DNA of 46,916 bases, taken from Armatimonadota bacterium. Its GTDB lineage: Bacteria > Armatimonadota > Hebobacteria > GCA-020354555 > CP070648. The translations under genes were made by a program, and so were the position numbers. The stretch is taken from positions 1 to 46,916 of the forward strand of contig DATLAK010000179.1 in NCBI GenBank assembly GCA_035527535.1. Direction: 5' to 3'. The notes below the pieces were generated by a model that was not told the origin of the DNA, did not search any database, and saw only the letters and a program-made list of their open reading frames with translations. Of the stretch, positions 20,888 through 27,655 are shown one piece after another. Within the stretch, counting starts at the first letter, position 1. Each line of letters starts with the position of its first letter.

Positions 20888-20934
20888 TTGACAAACCGGC
20901 GCGCCGATGGTAGTTCTTGCATGAGAGGTGCAAC
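20888..20934 (+). promoter_or_regulatory. hrcA upstream region: -35 box and TTGCA-N7-TGCAA inverted repeat
   Basis: A perfect TTGACA at 20888-20893 stands 17 bases before TAGTTC, a poor -10. Immediately downstream, TTGCA (20917-20921) and TGCAA (20929-20933) form an inverted repeat over the GAGAGG ribosome site of hrcA. That position would suit an operator, but the sequence is not CIRCE and the function is unproven. Confidence 0.35.
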
Positions 20935-20935
20935 G

Positions 20936-21964
20936 GTGGCGCGGACGCTGGACGAGCGCAAGCGCGCGATTCTCGGAGTGGTGGTCGAGCGCTACATCGC
21001 CACCGGAGAACCGGTGGGGTCGGCGTGGGTCGTGGGTTGCGGGGACCTCGCGGTATGCTCGGCGACGGTGCGCAATGAGATGTCCGAGCTCGAACGGGCG
21101 GGCTACCTGGGTCACCCCCATACCTCGGCCGGGCGGGTGCCGACCGATCGCGGCTATCGCGTTTACGCCGAGAGCGTGGTGTCCCGAGCGCAACCCGGCG
21201 CCGACCCGGGTCCGTTTGCGGATCTGGAGTGCAGCCAAGAAGCGGAGACGGCGCTGGAGGCAACCTGTCGCGCGCTGGCGCGCCTGACGCGTTTCCTGTC
21301 GCTGGCGCAGCCGCCGAGTTGGCGCCATGAGAAGCTGCGCTACCTGCAGCTTTCGCGGCTCAACCCGCGCCGCGTGCTGGTGGTGGTGGTGACCGAGACC
21401 GGGCGCGTGCACCATGCCCTGCTCGAGTTCAACCGCCTGCCCAGCACCGGGCAATTGCGGGCGCTGGGGGCGGTCATCAGCGATCGCTTGCGCGGGGTCG
21501 CGCTGGTCGAGCTCGATCGCGATCGGCTGCTGCGCGCGGTGCGCGAGCTGTGGTCGCGCACGCCCTTTGCCGACCAAGCGGTCGAGTTGCTGTCCGCCAG
21601 CCTGCCGGTGACCGCGGGCAGCCCCCTGGTGATTGAGGGCGGCAGCCGCCTGCTGGAGACACAGGAGTTCCAGCAAGCGGAAGTCGCGCGCGAGGTGTTC
21701 GGCGTGATCGAAGAGCGTTCCTATCTGAGTGAGCTGCTGGCGCGCCAGCGCCCCGGCGTGTCGGTGATGATCGGCGACGACACCGGCCATCCCGCCTTGC
21801 GTCACTGCGCGCTGGTGTCGGCCACCTACCAGGCGCCGGGAGGCGCCTGCGGCTGCCTCGGGGTGCTGGGCCCCAAGCGCATGCCGTACGGATCGGTGAT
21901 GTCGGCGCTGCTGCTGGCCGCGCGCGCCTTGGGGGCGGCGTTCGCGAGCAAGGCCCGCAAGTAG
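20936..21964 (+). CDS. hrcA: Heat-inducible transcription repressor HrcA
   Basis: A 342-residue repressor of heat-shock operons, normally stabilised by GroEL. The N-terminal winged helix is clear: LDERKRAILGVVVERYIATG, then SATVRNEMSELERAGYLGHP and HTSAGRVPTDRGYRVYAE, the HrcA hallmark. The C-terminal GAF-like part contains VVVTETGRVHHALLEFNR and ends LLLAARALGAAF. GTG at 20936 is preferred because GAGAGG lies 6-7 bases before it; an ATG 15 bases earlier has no ribosome site. First gene of the chaperone cluster. It may respond to the neighbouring chaperonin, since no groEL is here. Confidence 0.93.
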   Translation: MARTLDERKRAILGVVVERYIATGEPVGSAWVVGCGDLAVCSATVRNEMSELERAGYLGHPHTSAGRVPTDRGYRVYAESVVSRAQPGADPGPFADLECSQEAETALEATCRALARLTRFLSLAQPPSWRHEKLRYLQLSRLNPRRVLVVVVTETGRVHHALLEFNRLPSTGQLRALGAVISDRLRGVALVELDRDRLLRAVRELWSRTPFADQAVELLSASLPVTAGSPLVIEGGSRLLETQEFQQAEVAREVFGVIEERSYLSELLARQRPGVSVMIGDDTGHPALRHCALVSATYQAPGGACGCLGVLGPKRMPYGSVMSALLLAARALGAAFASKARK

Positions 21965-22023
21965 CACGGCCGCCGGCTGAGCCCGGGCGCGACTTCGCTG
22001 AAGTCCCTGTTCCGAGCGAAGTG

Positions 22024-22060
22024 GGCTAGGGCCGACGAGCCGGCCCGCCACGTCCCTAGG
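22024..22060. repeat. Double-hairpin dispersed repeat (copy D)
   Basis: Begins ggctagggcc, with GCCGaCGAgCCGGC-type pairing, and runs through cccgccacgtccctagg. Related to the copy at 22089 only 30 bases on; both fill the gap between hrcA and the chaperonin gene. Confidence 0.55.
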
Positions 22061-22088
22061 TCAGTGACCGGGATGGCGGCCTTTAGGT

Positions 22089-22149
22089 GGCTAGGGCCGA
22101 CGCATCGGCCCGCCACGGCGGTCTGCAGAGCAGACCTAGCCGCCTAGCC
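22089..22149. repeat. Double-hairpin dispersed repeat (copy E)
   Basis: Contains GGGCCGAcgcaTCGGCCC and then gcggtctgcagagcagacctagccgc, where GGTCTGC-aga-GCAGACC is a perfect hairpin. The second half is identical to that at 27749-27797. Confidence 0.7.
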
Positions 22150-22188
22150 AGCGGCCCATCGGGTTAGCCGCCCAAGGGGGGGTCATCT

Positions 22189-22208
22189 CGCCCCGATCGG
22201 TCGGGGCG
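22189..22208. repeat. Short palindrome, family 'CCCCGAC' (copy 3)
   Basis: CGCCCCGATC-GG-TCGGGGCG, a near-perfect inverted repeat 45 bases before the chaperonin start. Same family as 724-743. Confidence 0.65.
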
Positions 22209-22252
22209 CCGGTTGCCGTCGGTTCCCTATTCTGAGGCAGGCGAGGCTAGCC

Positions 22253-23806
22253 ATGCCCGAGGTCGAGGGCGAGAACAAGCAAGGCGCCGCTGACGAGCGC
22301 CTGTCCGCGCTCGTCAGCAACGCCAGCGCCATCCGCACCGTGGCGGCGGCGGTCGAAGGCACGCTCGGGCCCAAGGGGCTCGACTGCATGCTGGTGGACC
22401 GCTTCGGCGGTGTCACCATCACCAACGACGGATTCGCCATTCTCGACCAGATAGACGTTGCCCACCCCGCCGCCCGCATGCTGATCAACACCGCCCAGGC
22501 GCAGGATCGCCAGGTCGGCGACGGCACCACCACCGCCACGATCCTGGCGAGCACGTTGGTGACAGAGGCGGTCAACCGCGCGGCCAGGGGGGTGCCGGTG
22601 ACCCGGCTCATCGAAGGCATGCGCGCGGCGCTGGCGCGCGCCGTCGAGGTGATCGAAGGACATCGCCGGGAGATCGAGGGATTCGACGATCCCCTGCTGG
22701 CGCGGGCGGCCCTCATCGCCGGCCGCGGGGACGCGCAGGTCGCCGATCTCGTCGTCGAGGCGGCGCGGCTGATCGGGCGCGCGGCTCTGGCTGAGCCGGG
22801 GTTCCGGCTGAGCGAATGGATCATCGCGCGGGAGGGAGCGGACAACGAGGTCGTGGCCGGCCTCATCATTGACAAGGAGCGGATGAACCGCCGCATGCCG
22901 CGGCAGGTGCGGCGCGCGCGGGTGCTGCTGCTCGATGACGCGCTGGAGCCGGAGCAGCTGGGGGAGCAGGCGCTGGCGACGGAGGCGGGGTTCGCCCGCT
23001 ACCTGGAGCTCAAGCGCCGCTTCGCCGAGGCGCTGGAGCGGGTGGCGGGACTCGGCGTCAACGTGGTGGTGGCGGAGCGCGGGGTCAGCGACGATGCCGA
23101 GGAGGCGCTGACGGCGGCGGGCGCGATGGTGCTGCGGCGGGTGTCAGCGCGCGACCTCGCGCGCATCGCCGAACACACCGGCGCGCGCCCGGTCAAGCGC
23201 ACCGGCCTGGCGCGGGCGGCGGATGACCTCGCGCGCTGCCTGGGCCGCGCCCGCCTGGTGGCGCAAGACGAGCGGCTGGGCCACGTTCGCTTTGAGGGCG
23301 GCGGCGGGCGACGCGCGGCGACGATCCTGGTGGGGGCGGCCACGGCTGAGGTCCGCGACGAGCGCCGGCGCATCGCCCAGGACGCCGCGAGCGGCGCCCA
23401 GCAAGCGCTCCTGAGCGGGGTGGTCCCCGGCGGCGGCGCGGCCGAGGCGGCGGCCGCGGTCGAGGTGCAGCGGCTGCGCGCCTCGATGCGCGGCATGGCG
23501 GCCTACGGCGCCGAGTGCGTGGTCGAGGCGCTGCGGCGCCCGCTGGCGCAGATCATCGCCAACGCCGGCTTCAACCCGCTGGAGAAGATGGGCAACCTGA
23601 TGGCGGAAACCGCCAGCGCCGGGAGCGACGCGCTGGCGATAGACTGTGACACCGGCGAGGTCGCGGACATGCTAAGCTTGGGGGTGGTGGATCCGACCGC
23701 GGTCAAGGTGCACGCCCTGCGCGCCGCCGGGGAGGTGGCCCAGGCCGTGCTGCGCATCAGCACCATCATCCGCCGGCGCGACGCCGACCAGCCGCCGCCG
23801 GCATGA
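22253..23806 (+). CDS. Archaeal-type chaperonin (group II/III, thermosome-like)
   Basis: A 517-residue ring-forming, ATP-driven protein-folding chaperonin of the thermosome/CCT branch, not GroEL. Equatorial ATP-site motifs: LGPKGLDCMLVDRFG (38-52), TITNDG (55-60), DVAHPAARM (68-76), GDGTTTATIL (89-98), VPGGGAAEA (391-399) and DMLSLGVVDPTAVKVHALRA (472-491). The apical domain keeps a long helical segment (about 232-268) where group II chaperonins have the built-in lid, so no GroES is needed. Its place between hrcA and grpE-dnaK matches the bacterial group III chaperonins described from Firmicutes such as Carboxydothermus. It lacks the GGM tail of GroEL. Start ATG follows AGGCGAGG. Gene 40 bases before grpE. 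Confidence 0.92.
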   Translation: MPEVEGENKQGAADERLSALVSNASAIRTVAAAVEGTLGPKGLDCMLVDRFGGVTITNDGFAILDQIDVAHPAARMLINTAQAQDRQVGDGTTTATILASTLVTEAVNRAARGVPVTRLIEGMRAALARAVEVIEGHRREIEGFDDPLLARAALIAGRGDAQVADLVVEAARLIGRAALAEPGFRLSEWIIAREGADNEVVAGLIIDKERMNRRMPRQVRRARVLLLDDALEPEQLGEQALATEAGFARYLELKRRFAEALERVAGLGVNVVVAERGVSDDAEEALTAAGAMVLRRVSARDLARIAEHTGARPVKRTGLARAADDLARCLGRARLVAQDERLGHVRFEGGGGRRAATILVGAATAEVRDERRRIAQDAASGAQQALLSGVVPGGGAAEAAAAVEVQRLRASMRGMAAYGAECVVEALRRPLAQIIANAGFNPLEKMGNLMAETASAGSDALAIDCDTGEVADMLSLGVVDPTAVKVHALRAAGEVAQAVLRISTIIRRRDADQPPPA

Positions 23807-23846
23807 GGCGTCGGCGGCGATTGCGGAATACCCAATAGGTGGTTCC

Positions 23847-24473
23847 ATGCCCAAGCGACACAAGCTCGAGATAACGCCCGCGGCCGCGGCGGCGCCCGCC
23901 GAAGGCGCGGGCCCGGAGGGCGCGCAGGAGGGCGCCCTCGTCGAGCCGGCGCCGGAGCGCGTGGCGCACCTGCAGCAGGAGTTGGCGGCGGCGCAAGCGG
24001 CGGCGCAGGAGCTGCATGACAAGTACCTGCGCGCCCTCGCCGACCTCGACAACTTCCGTCGCCGCGCGCGCCACGAGCGCGGCAATGCGGTGCGCGATGG
24101 CGAGGCCGCGATTCTGCTGGAGGTGCTGCCGGTGCTCGACAACTTCGCGCGCGCGATGGCGGCGGCGCGGGACGCCAACGACGCGCAGGCGCTGATGGAC
24201 GGCGTCAAGATGAGCTACGACCAACTGCACGCGGCGCTGGCGCGCAAGGGAGTGCGTCCAATCGCCGCCGCGGGCAAGCAGTTCGATCCCCGCTACCACG
24301 ACGCGGTAGGCCAGGTGCCGACGGCCGAGCAGCCGGAAGGTACGGTCGTGGTCGAGGTGCAAAAGGGCTACCTGCATGGCGATCGCGTGCTGCGCCCGGC
24401 GCGGGTGATCGTGGCGGCGCCGCCGGCGGCGGATGATGGTCACCCCCCGCGCCCGCGCCGCGAGGAGTCATAG
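23847..24473 (+). CDS. grpE: Hsp70 nucleotide-exchange factor GrpE
   Basis: A 208-residue dimeric co-chaperone that releases ADP from DnaK. After a variable Ala/Glu-rich head comes the coiled-coil helix (VAHLQQELAAAQAAAQELHDK, then LRALADLDNFRRRARHE), the four-helix segment (LEVLPVLDNFARAM) and the C-terminal beta domain (FDPRYHDAVGQVPTAEQPEG and VVEVQKGYLHGDRVLRPARV). Usual length. Its stop codon TAG is immediately followed by the TTG start of dnaK, with no spacing. Confidence 0.95.
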   Translation: MPKRHKLEITPAAAAAPAEGAGPEGAQEGALVEPAPERVAHLQQELAAAQAAAQELHDKYLRALADLDNFRRRARHERGNAVRDGEAAILLEVLPVLDNFARAMAAARDANDAQALMDGVKMSYDQLHAALARKGVRPIAAAGKQFDPRYHDAVGQVPTAEQPEGTVVVEVQKGYLHGDRVLRPARVIVAAPPAADDGHPPRPRREES

Positions 24474-26288
24474 TTGGCGCAGATCATCGGCATTGACCTG
24501 GGCACCACCAATTCCGCCGTCGCCGCCATGCACGGCGGGGAGCCCGTCATCATCCCCACCGCCGAGGGCGAGCGCCTGTGCCCGTCGGTGGTCGCCTTCA
24601 CCGCCGCCGGCGAGCGCCTCGTCGGCGAGATCGCCAAGCGCCAGTGCGTGACCAACGCCGCGCGCACTATCTGCTCCGCCAAGCGGCGGATGGGCACCGA
24701 CTGGAGCATCAACATTGACGGCAAGCCCTACAGCGCTCCCGAGGTGTCCGCCGCCATCCTGGAGAAGCTGCGCGCCGACGCCGAGGCCTTCCTGGGCGAG
24801 GCGGTCGCTCGCGCCGTCATCACCGTCCCCGCCTACTTCTCCGACGCCCAGCGCCAGGCGACCCGTGACGCCGGCCGTATCGCCGGCCTCGACGTCGCGC
24901 GCATCATCAATGAACCCACCGCCGCCGCCCTCGCTTACGGCCTGCAAGCGCAGGACCTCCACACCGTGCTGGTGTGGGATCTCGGCGGGGGCACCTTCGA
25001 CGTGTCGGTGCTGGAGCTGGGAGACGGCGTCTTCGAGGTCAAGGCCACCAGCGGTGATACCCACCTCGGCGGCGATGACTGGGACGAGCGCATCGTCGGC
25101 TGGCTGGCGGACGAGTTCAAGGCCGAGCACGGCCTCGACCTGCGCGCGGACGCGACCGCCATGCAGCGCCTGCGCGAGGCGGCGGAGCGCGCCAAGATCG
25201 AGCTCTCGACCCTGGTCGCCACGCGCATCAGCCTGCCCTTCATCAGCGCCTCCGGACCCGCCCCCAGGCACCTCGAGCGCGAGCTCACCCGCGCCCATTT
25301 CGAGCACCTGAGCGCCGACCTGCTCGAGCGCGTGGTGGTACCCACCCGCACTGCCATGGCCGACGCCCGCGTCACCCCGGAGGACCTCGACCGCATCATC
25401 CTGGTCGGCGGCCTCACGCGCATGCCGGCGGTGGTAGCGCTGGTGACGCAGCTCTTCGGCCAGCCGCCCCATTGCGAGATCAACCCGGATGAGGCGGTCG
25501 CGGTGGGCGCCGCCATCCAGGCGGCGGTGCTGGCGGGGGAGGTGCGCGACATCGTCCTGCTCGACGTGACCCCGCTGTCAATGGGCATCGAGACCGCGGG
25601 CGGGGTCTTCCAGCGCCTGATCATGCGCAACACCACCATGCCCGTGCGCACGACCGAGACCTTCACCACCGCCGCTGACAACCAGTCCGCGGTGGACCTC
25701 CACGTGCTGCAGGGCGAGCGCGAGATGGCCGCCGACAACATCAGCCTCGGCCGCTTCCAGCTCGGCGGCCTGCGCCCCGCGCCCAAGGGCGTGCCCCGCA
25801 TCCAGGTCACCTTCGACATTGACGTCAACGGCATCCTCCACGTCTCCGCGCGCGATGTCGCCACCGGAGGTCGCCGCGAGGTCGAGATAACCCCCGCCTC
25901 CGGCCTGAGCCCGGCGCAAGTCGAGCGCCTCATCGCCGACGCCGACGCCAACCGCGATCGCGACCGGCGCAAGCGAGAGGCCGCCCAACTACGCCTGCGC
26001 GTGGATGATCTGCTGGCGAGCGCCGATCGCGTGCTCAGCGATGCCGCCGGCAAGCTGCCGCAGGCGACGACCCAGCCGCTGGCCGATGTCGTGAGTCGGG
26101 CGCGGGAGACCGACGCGGGGACCTCCCTGGGGCGACTGCGGCAGGTGATCGCGGAACTCGAGCGCGCGAGCTACGAGGTGACGGAAGCGCTGTATCGCTA
26201 CAATGCCGCCGAGCAGGCGTCGCAGGCGGCTGGGCGCGCCGGGGAACGCGCCCCCGGCGCGCTGGAGGGCGAGGTGCGCGGCGAGTAG
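24474..26288 (+). CDS. dnaK: Hsp70 chaperone DnaK
   Basis: A 604-residue ATP-dependent chaperone. Nucleotide-binding domain: [14 protein letters not shown] (4-17), [68 protein letters not shown]. Substrate-binding domain starts after [18 protein letters not shown] and includes the C-terminal helical lid with [17 protein letters not shown]. The TTG start has GAGGAG seven bases upstream, inside the end of grpE; in-frame ATGs come only much later. DnaJ, which often follows, is missing, and ftsZ comes next. The final tail is short and Gly/Glu-rich. Confidence 0.96.
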
Positions 26289-26453: not shown

Positions 26454-26482
26454 TTGACACCCTCCGGCCGGCTGCCTATAAT
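26454..26482 (+). promoter_or_regulatory. Perfect-consensus sigma70 promoter of ftsZ
   Basis: TTGACA, a 17-base spacer and TATAAT: all twelve consensus bases at the ideal spacing. Transcription should start near 26489, five or six bases before an in-frame ATG at 26495 and about 117 bases before the ATG at 26606 that has a strong ribosome site. Confidence 0.85.
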
Positions 26483-26605
26483 AACGCAGTTTCCATGGAC
26501 ATCGGCGCCGATCAGCAGCAGGCGCGGCTCGAAGCAACCCTTGAGCGACCTGACGCAGCGGACGCGGAGGCGACTCTGTTCGCCATCCAGGAGGGGACGA
26601 AACAG

Positions 26606-27655
26606 ATGGACGAGGGCGGGAGTTTTGCCAAGATTAAGGTGATCGGCATGGGCGGCGCCGGCAGCAATGCCGTGGATCGCATGATCGCCGCCGACCTGCG
26701 CGGAGTGGAGTTCATCGCCGCCAACACCGACGTCCAAGCGCTGAACCTGTGCGCGGCGGAACGCAAGCTGCAGCTGGGCAAGGAGGTCACCCGTGGTCTG
26801 GGTGCGGGGGGGGATGCCGAGCTCGGTCTGCGCGCGGCGGAGGAGAGCCGCCAGGAGCTGAAGAACGCGCTCGAAGGGGCGGACATGGTGTTCGTCGCCG
26901 CGGGCATGGGCGGCGGCACCGGCACCGGCGGCTGCCCGGTGGTGGCGGCGGTCGCGCGGGAGCTGAGCGCGCTTACCGTCGCCGTGGTCACCAAGCCCTT
27001 TGCCTTCGAGCGCGGCCGCCGCATGGCGATCGCCGAGCGCGGCATTCAATCCCTGCGCGAGCAGGTGGACACGCTGATCACCATCCCCAACGACCGTCTG
27101 CTGGGGATCGTGGACAAGCACGCGACCCTCGATGAGGCTTTCGCCCAGGCGGATGAGGTGCTGCGCCAGGGCGTGCAGGGCATCTCGGATCTGATCACCG
27201 TTCCCGGCCGCATCAACCTCGACTTCGCCGACGTGAAGACGGTCATGTCCGGCGCCGGGCCCGCGATCATGGGCATCGGCGAAGCCACCGGCGAACACCG
27301 CGCCGCCGAGGCCGCTCAGGCCGCCATCTCCAGCCCCCTGCTCGAAACCTCGGTCGAGGGCGCCAAGCGCATCCTGTTCAATATCACCGGCGGCGCCGAC
27401 CTCGCGCTGTCCGAGGTCGAGGAAGCGGCGCAGATCATCGCCAGCGCCTCCGACGCCCCCGACACCAACGTGCTTTTCGGCGTCGTCATTGACCGGGAGA
27501 TCGGCGACGCGGTGCGAGTGACGGTCATCGCCACCGGCTTCGAACCGCACGCGGAGGGCGCCCAGAGAATGGTGGAAGCCTTCGCTGAGGACCTGCCGCA
27601 GGAGCCGCAGGAACCGCAGGACCTCGACGTACCCGCATTCGTTCGCCGCAAGTAA
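26606..27655 (+). CDS. ftsZ: Cell division GTPase FtsZ
   Basis: Tubulin-like GTPase that forms the division ring. From ATG 26606 it is 349 residues: [19 protein letters not shown] (9-27), [14 protein letters not shown]-type signature [13 protein letters not shown] (about 102-114), the T7 synergy loop [15 protein letters not shown] (about 205-219) and a C-terminal conserved peptide [11 protein letters not shown] that binds FtsA/SepF-type partners. The start is chosen for AGGAGGGG nine bases upstream and normal N-terminal length; the in-frame ATG at 26495, almost at the predicted transcript end, would add 37 residues. The gene stands alone after dnaK instead of in the mur/fts cluster. Confidence 0.95.

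Follow-up and report, generated by a model that had tools for sequence, protein, structure and literature searches.

Group III chaperonins have so far been described from Firmicutes, and their gene has been reported inside the dnaK operon, with one exception. The Firmicute hrcA-grpE-dnaK-dnaJ operon with an embedded archaeal-like chaperonin is attributed to Techtmann and Robb (2010) by PMC5635000 and PMC5904260. According to An et al. 2017 (PMC5635000), the marks of the group are a missing nucleotide-sensing loop, a shortened lid and Arg155, together with the lid-tip residues Leu237, Phe243, Tyr246 and Phe253 (numbering of Ch-CPN, the chaperonin of Carboxydothermus hydrogenoformans). The origin of the group is disputed, since it can be regarded either as a relic of the ancestral chaperonin or as the outcome of a transfer from an archaeon to a Firmicute (PMC5635000, PMC12696368).

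The window, that is the whole stretch of 46,916 nucleotides analysed here, belongs to an Armatimonadota bacterium (assembly GCA_035527535.1, contig DATLAK010000179.1). No 16S rRNA gene was found in its genome (G000), and 16S probes excluded just some groups; prepilins of a type known in Armatimonadota pointed to this phylum. A reading made from the sequence only had proposed an archaeal-type chaperonin within an hrcA-grpE-dnaK operon; indeed, all four genes were found on the + strand in the order hrcA, chaperonin, grpE, dnaK, followed by ftsZ, and each is recognized by Pfam or NCBIfam profiles (Table 1). dnaJ is absent from this chaperone cluster. A gap of 288 bp separates hrcA from the chaperonin gene, and strict co-transcription of the two is putative. 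The consensus promoter located before ftsZ likely marks the end of the chaperone unit; ftsZ was considered as a member and dropped, because it is preceded by this promoter of its own. The hrcA-chaperonin gap also contains two direct repeats, GGCTAGGGCCGACG and CGGCCCGCCACG, 65 bp apart and 5' of the chaperonin gene, which are possibly copies of a dispersed repeat; an Rfam search of the window gave no match.

Table 1. Features of the chaperone cluster and its flanks, in positions of the window
Feature	Position	Strand	Description
Promoter-like element before hrcA	20888-20917	+	TTGACA, 18 nt, AGTTCT (weak -10)
hrcA	20936-21964	+	Heat-inducible transcriptional repressor; GTG start at 20936; TIGR00331 1-335/338, 246 bits (cut-off 197)
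Two 29-nt direct repeats	22024-22052, 22089-22117	+	90% alike, each an imperfect palindrome; inside the 288-bp hrcA-chaperonin gap
Group III chaperonin	22253-23806	+	517 aa, ATP-driven, built-in lid; Pfam Cpn60_TCP1 1-488/490, E 2e-108
Arg158	22724-22726	+	Equivalent of Ch-CPN Arg155 (gamma-phosphate contact), in a loop shortened by six residues
Built-in lid	22931-23053	+	Residues 227-267 (Ch-CPN 223-263); 41 residues, four fewer than archaeal Group II (45)
grpE	23847-24473	+	Nucleotide exchange factor of DnaK; PF01025 E 3e-48
dnaK	24474-26288	+	PF00012 E 2e-214; TTG start directly 3' of the grpE stop
Sigma-70 promoter before ftsZ	26454-26482	+	TTGACA-17-TATAAT, consensus 12/12
ftsZ (flanking)	26495-27655	+	TIGR00065, 410 bits

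The chaperonin is of the thermosome/CCT type, as had been supposed: thermosome models give 283-291 bits, about twice the 131-156 bits of the main GroEL models; the NDG and GDGTTT motifs and the lid segment are present, and the tail has no GGM. The protein is not a GroEL: it carries the lid insert, has no groES neighbour and groups apart from GroEL. The nearest PDB entries by sequence are 9rwq, the resurrected ACIII (597 bits; this entry is labelled ACII in the sequence file and ACIII/Group III in the Foldseek structure listing), and Ch-CPN 5x9u (437 bits), while ACII and the archaeal thermosomes reach 268 and about 220 bits, respectively. The Group III marks were scored in an alignment of 84 chaperonins, including 40 from Armatimonadota, 36 from Bacillota and 5 from archaea, and every mark tested is present in the protein of the window. 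Arginine occupies the Ch-CPN 155 position in 40/40 Armatimonadota and 36/36 Bacillota sequences, where all five archaeal ones have threonine; the catalytic Asp373 of Ch-CPN corresponds to D377. The segment of the nucleotide-sensing loop measures 19 residues in 39 of the 40 Armatimonadota (12 in the remaining one) and in 36/36 Bacillota, compared to 25 in 5/5 archaea; thus, the loop is absent. Likewise, the lid is four residues shorter in all 40 Armatimonadota and all 36 Bacillota sequences and in none of the five archaeal ones, and its hydrophobic residues L241, F247, Y250 and F257 match Leu237, Phe243, Tyr246 and Phe253 of Ch-CPN. Values of dN/dS between related copies are 0.03-0.18 where they could be estimated, and the gene is therefore under strong purifying selection.

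An AlphaFold2 model built from four sequences has a mean pLDDT of 55, and for this reason details of the lid are claimed for the apical domain only: the apical region (about 220-340) is modelled with confidence, with block means mostly of 73-87, and the rest poorly. The best Foldseek matches of the model are the Group III crystal structures 5x9v and 5x9u, and structural alignments give 42-44% identity with Ch-CPN.

Close homologues (E below 1e-60) are found in 40 of 291 Armatimonadota genomes searched, distributed over 16 of 45 families, and in 102 of 300 sampled Bacillota genomes; the named Firmicute genomes are not part of the set of 291, and the comparison phylum contains a Carboxydothermus protein that does not differ from 5x9u at any residue compared. 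The best matches of a plasmid search included haloarchaeal thermosomes at about 23-31% identity and no Group III chaperonin. In the phylogeny, Armatimonadota and Bacillota chaperonins, Ch-CPN among them, fall together (81/97), apart from archaeal Group II (n=5; 100/99) and GroEL (n=2; 100/100), so that the protein of the window belongs with Group III, outside GroEL. The 40 Armatimonadota sequences lie on one side of a branch (support 81/98; 84% of bootstrap trees), and a single Bacillota clade is compatible with the data (p-AU 0.61). The simplest reading of these sequence comparisons is that the two phyla would represent sister branches. The proposed extension of the range beyond Firmicutes is hence borne out: the gene is of Group III, its host is an Armatimonadota, and the contig is not that of an ordinary Firmicute.

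Since the Armatimonadota sequences form one clade beside Bacillota, the gene of the window is, as far as its sequence tells, an old lineage of this phylum with no recent transfer; an ancient transfer between the phyla may have occurred. The gene groups with that of a genome of the same family and another genus (G192; 74-75% identity, 100/100), and the pair groups with a further member of the class (G201) at 97/81. A recent acquisition from a Firmicute, together with its hrcA-cpn-grpE-dnaK-dnaJ block, is very unlikely: the order hrcA-cpn-grpE is common to Bacillota, and the AU test gives no formal rejection of a placement of the pair inside Bacillota (p-AU 0.143); however, this tree is 25 log units worse, the operon of the window has neither CIRCE nor dnaJ, and its HrcA shares 63% identity with the G192 protein against about 30% with Firmicute HrcA. 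The context is also native, since many Armatimonadota devoid of the chaperonin have hrcA next to grpE, the chaperonin thus occupying a gap of their own gene order: nearly all of 30 hrcA loci compared come from such genomes, and grpE lies close downstream of hrcA in about half of them, with dnaJ following grpE in two. The suggestion that the locus might mark a transfer into this genome was therefore not upheld, the gene being part of an Armatimonadota-wide clade with conserved neighbours. Finally, the assembly is a draft (3.24 Mb in 192 contigs, 95.75% complete, 1.56% contaminated), and one might suspect a chimera, or a mixed bin into which a contig of an archaeon or a Firmicute had strayed; this is hardly credible, as the single-contig genome G192 repeats the order hrcA-cpn-grpE-dnaK-ftsZ, with hrcA, chaperonin, grpE and dnaK 58-75% identical to those of the window.

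Gene neighbours were counted at the 40 Armatimonadota and at 23 Bacillota loci; a few loci are truncated by the end of a contig. The Bacillota block hrcA-cpn-grpE-dnaK-dnaJ is found in nearly all 23 loci, dnaK and dnaJ being kept in 22. In Armatimonadota the chaperonin gene is adjoined by hrcA in 23/40 loci, by grpE in 32/40, by dnaK in 2/40 and by dnaJ in none. The two loci with dnaK beside grpE are those of the window and G192, from one family (f1); thus, the reported location inside a dnaK operon applies to this pair and not to the other 38 loci. Another family (f45) has the order hrcA-cpn-grpE-ftsZ, and the position of dnaK in f1, with grpE on one side and ftsZ on the other, seems to have arisen within that family. 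In the Armatimonadota genomes compared that separate dnaK from the chaperonin, it is found on other contigs; in the genome of the window, dnaK occurs twice, and the copy outside the operon lies on a different contig (G000:C112:5003-6541). Members of family f25 carry the chaperonin gene without hrcA or grpE, downstream of murI-like and rph-like genes, and in one of them (G205) searches for both HrcA and CIRCE found neither. As a separate observation, the 16S rRNA matches of G192:C1 are split, near 3736807 and at 206259-207039 (model positions 9-873 and 755-1520), which may be due to an assembly error, to masking or to an rRNA gene in pieces.

The control of the operon appears to differ between the two phyla. 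Each of the 23 Bacillota Group III operons carries a perfect CIRCE ahead of hrcA, while none with up to 2 mismatches was found at the 40 Armatimonadota chaperonin loci. In the window no CIRCE occurs within 3 mismatches; the best candidate in the 300 bp upstream of hrcA has 8, which is the level expected by chance, and searches with relaxed mismatches or a spacer of 8-10 gave nothing at this operon. The best matches in the same 300 bp of the other Armatimonadota have 7-9 mismatches, like random stretches, except for a sister pair of family f31, where sites with 3-4 mismatches may be remnants of CIRCE or mere promoter letters. Elsewhere in the genome, CIRCE with up to 2 mismatches is found in 26 of 31 Armatimonadota genomes (the reversed pattern, used as control, matches in one); of 26 sites examined, 22 stand immediately before groESL. 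The genome of the window yielded a single CIRCE, with one mismatch (G000:C149:51565-51591), which lies before one groESL pair; the second pair (C24) has none. Firmicute Group III genes have been reported to be regulated by HrcA (PMC5904260), and the absence of CIRCE thus indicates a difference in wiring between the phyla. Because CIRCE is missing at the chaperonin loci and mostly stands before groESL, HrcA probably controls groESL and not the Group III operon, although it could bind at a site unlike CIRCE. A perfect CIRCE was also observed in another genome (G257:C145, L165 position 1501), directly 5' of a gene for a zinc-ribbon, coiled-coil-like protein (1562-2266) and not of groESL, which looks like an unexpected target of HrcA.

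A sigma-A-type promoter stands upstream of hrcA at about 20 of 23 Armatimonadota loci, in the form TTGACA-17/18-TATnnT and mostly with an extended -10. In G192 the equivalent element, TTGACA-18-AGTTAT, has the same place and form as in the window; the two genomes share this weaker version, and the -10 box of the window falls below the scan threshold.

It had also been suggested that HrcA, normally sensed through GroEL, might here be tuned by the Group III chaperonin. The genome-wide search revealed two groEL/groES pairs besides this chaperonin. The idea may draw on the proximity of hrcA in the 23 Armatimonadota loci mentioned above and on the HrcA regulation of the Firmicute genes; we regard it as improbable, as both groEL/groES pairs are kept, the sole CIRCE stands before one of them and none at the operon, and HrcA needs no Group III chaperonin, being found also in Armatimonadota that do not have it. 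A search for prefoldin in the same genome found none. The genome contains a full Omp85/BamA-type match, which agrees with the diderm cell type assumed from the sequence.

Taken as a whole, we consider it highly probable that the window encodes an old Armatimonadota Group III lid chaperonin, which probably receives clients from DnaK-GrpE and would be supplied constantly from a sigma-A promoter, while HrcA would act on groESL. On the model of Ch-CPN, whose mechanism is taken from An et al. 2017 (PMC5635000), it would form back-to-back eight-membered rings (a hexadecamer), and its own lid would close over the client upon ATP binding without GroES or prefoldin and with little cooperativity. Clients are probably handed over from the DnaK-GrpE cycle, because the chaperonin gene adjoins grpE and, in the window, also lies near dnaK; this link is drawn from the gene neighbourhood, where most Armatimonadota have grpE but no dnaK. 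Although hrcA opens the cluster, the target that its product represses is most likely groESL, by way of CIRCE, and not the Group III operon; the chaperonin is thus probably made from the sigma-A promoter, and could offer a standing folding capacity next to the heat-inducible GroESL.

The family itself is known. In the literature searched, no paper links Armatimonadota with Group III chaperonins; the 195-sequence set of An et al. (PMC5635000) may include some, and the range itself may thus be already listed there. The spread in Armatimonadota, the order hrcA-cpn-grpE without dnaK and the missing CIRCE were not found described. There is, in our opinion, an even chance that the following holds in its entirety: Group III is not a Firmicute speciality derived from one archaeal acquisition, and a second phylum, with diderm cells, has a deep sister branch of its own, likewise placed between hrcA and grpE but free of CIRCE control and mostly separated from dnaK; the gene together with its neighbours would then be older than both phyla, or would have moved from the ancestor of one to that of the other, and the Armatimonadota chaperonin would fold proteins constitutively. 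A whole clade of diderm bacteria that has the gene at the equivalent position, apparently under different control, would provide a second deep branch for rooting Group III and for ancestral reconstructions; moreover, as the chaperonin is separated here from dnaK and from HrcA/CIRCE, its proposed partnership with DnaK can be tested by comparison.

Among known systems, GroEL/GroES (Group I) belongs to the same chaperonin superfamily and is present twice in this genome, but the protein of the window differs from GroEL by its lid segment, by the absence of a GGM-like tail and of a GroES partner gene alongside. With the archaeal Group II thermosome (for instance Thermococcus KS-1, 1q3r) it shares the built-in lid, the overall fold, NDG and GDGTTT; conversely, its nucleotide-sensing loop (six residues) is missing and its lid is four residues shorter, archaeal proteins match it at half the bit score and form a separate clade, and its genome has no prefoldin. 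The Firmicute hrcA-grpE-dnaK-dnaJ operon has hrcA, chaperonin and grpE in the same order, while the two phyla differ in CIRCE (23/23 Bacillota operons; 0/40 in Armatimonadota at up to 2 mismatches) and in dnaK and dnaJ (both in 22/23; 2/40 and 0/40, respectively). Ch-CPN (PDB 5x9u/5x9v; PMC5635000) is homologous over the whole length and shares the missing nucleotide-sensing loop, the short lid, the equivalents of Arg155 and Asp373, the lid hydrophobics and a gene placed between hrcA and grpE; unlike it, the chaperonin of the window belongs to the Armatimonadota branch, in an operon without CIRCE or dnaJ, and has dnaK adjacent in its own family only.
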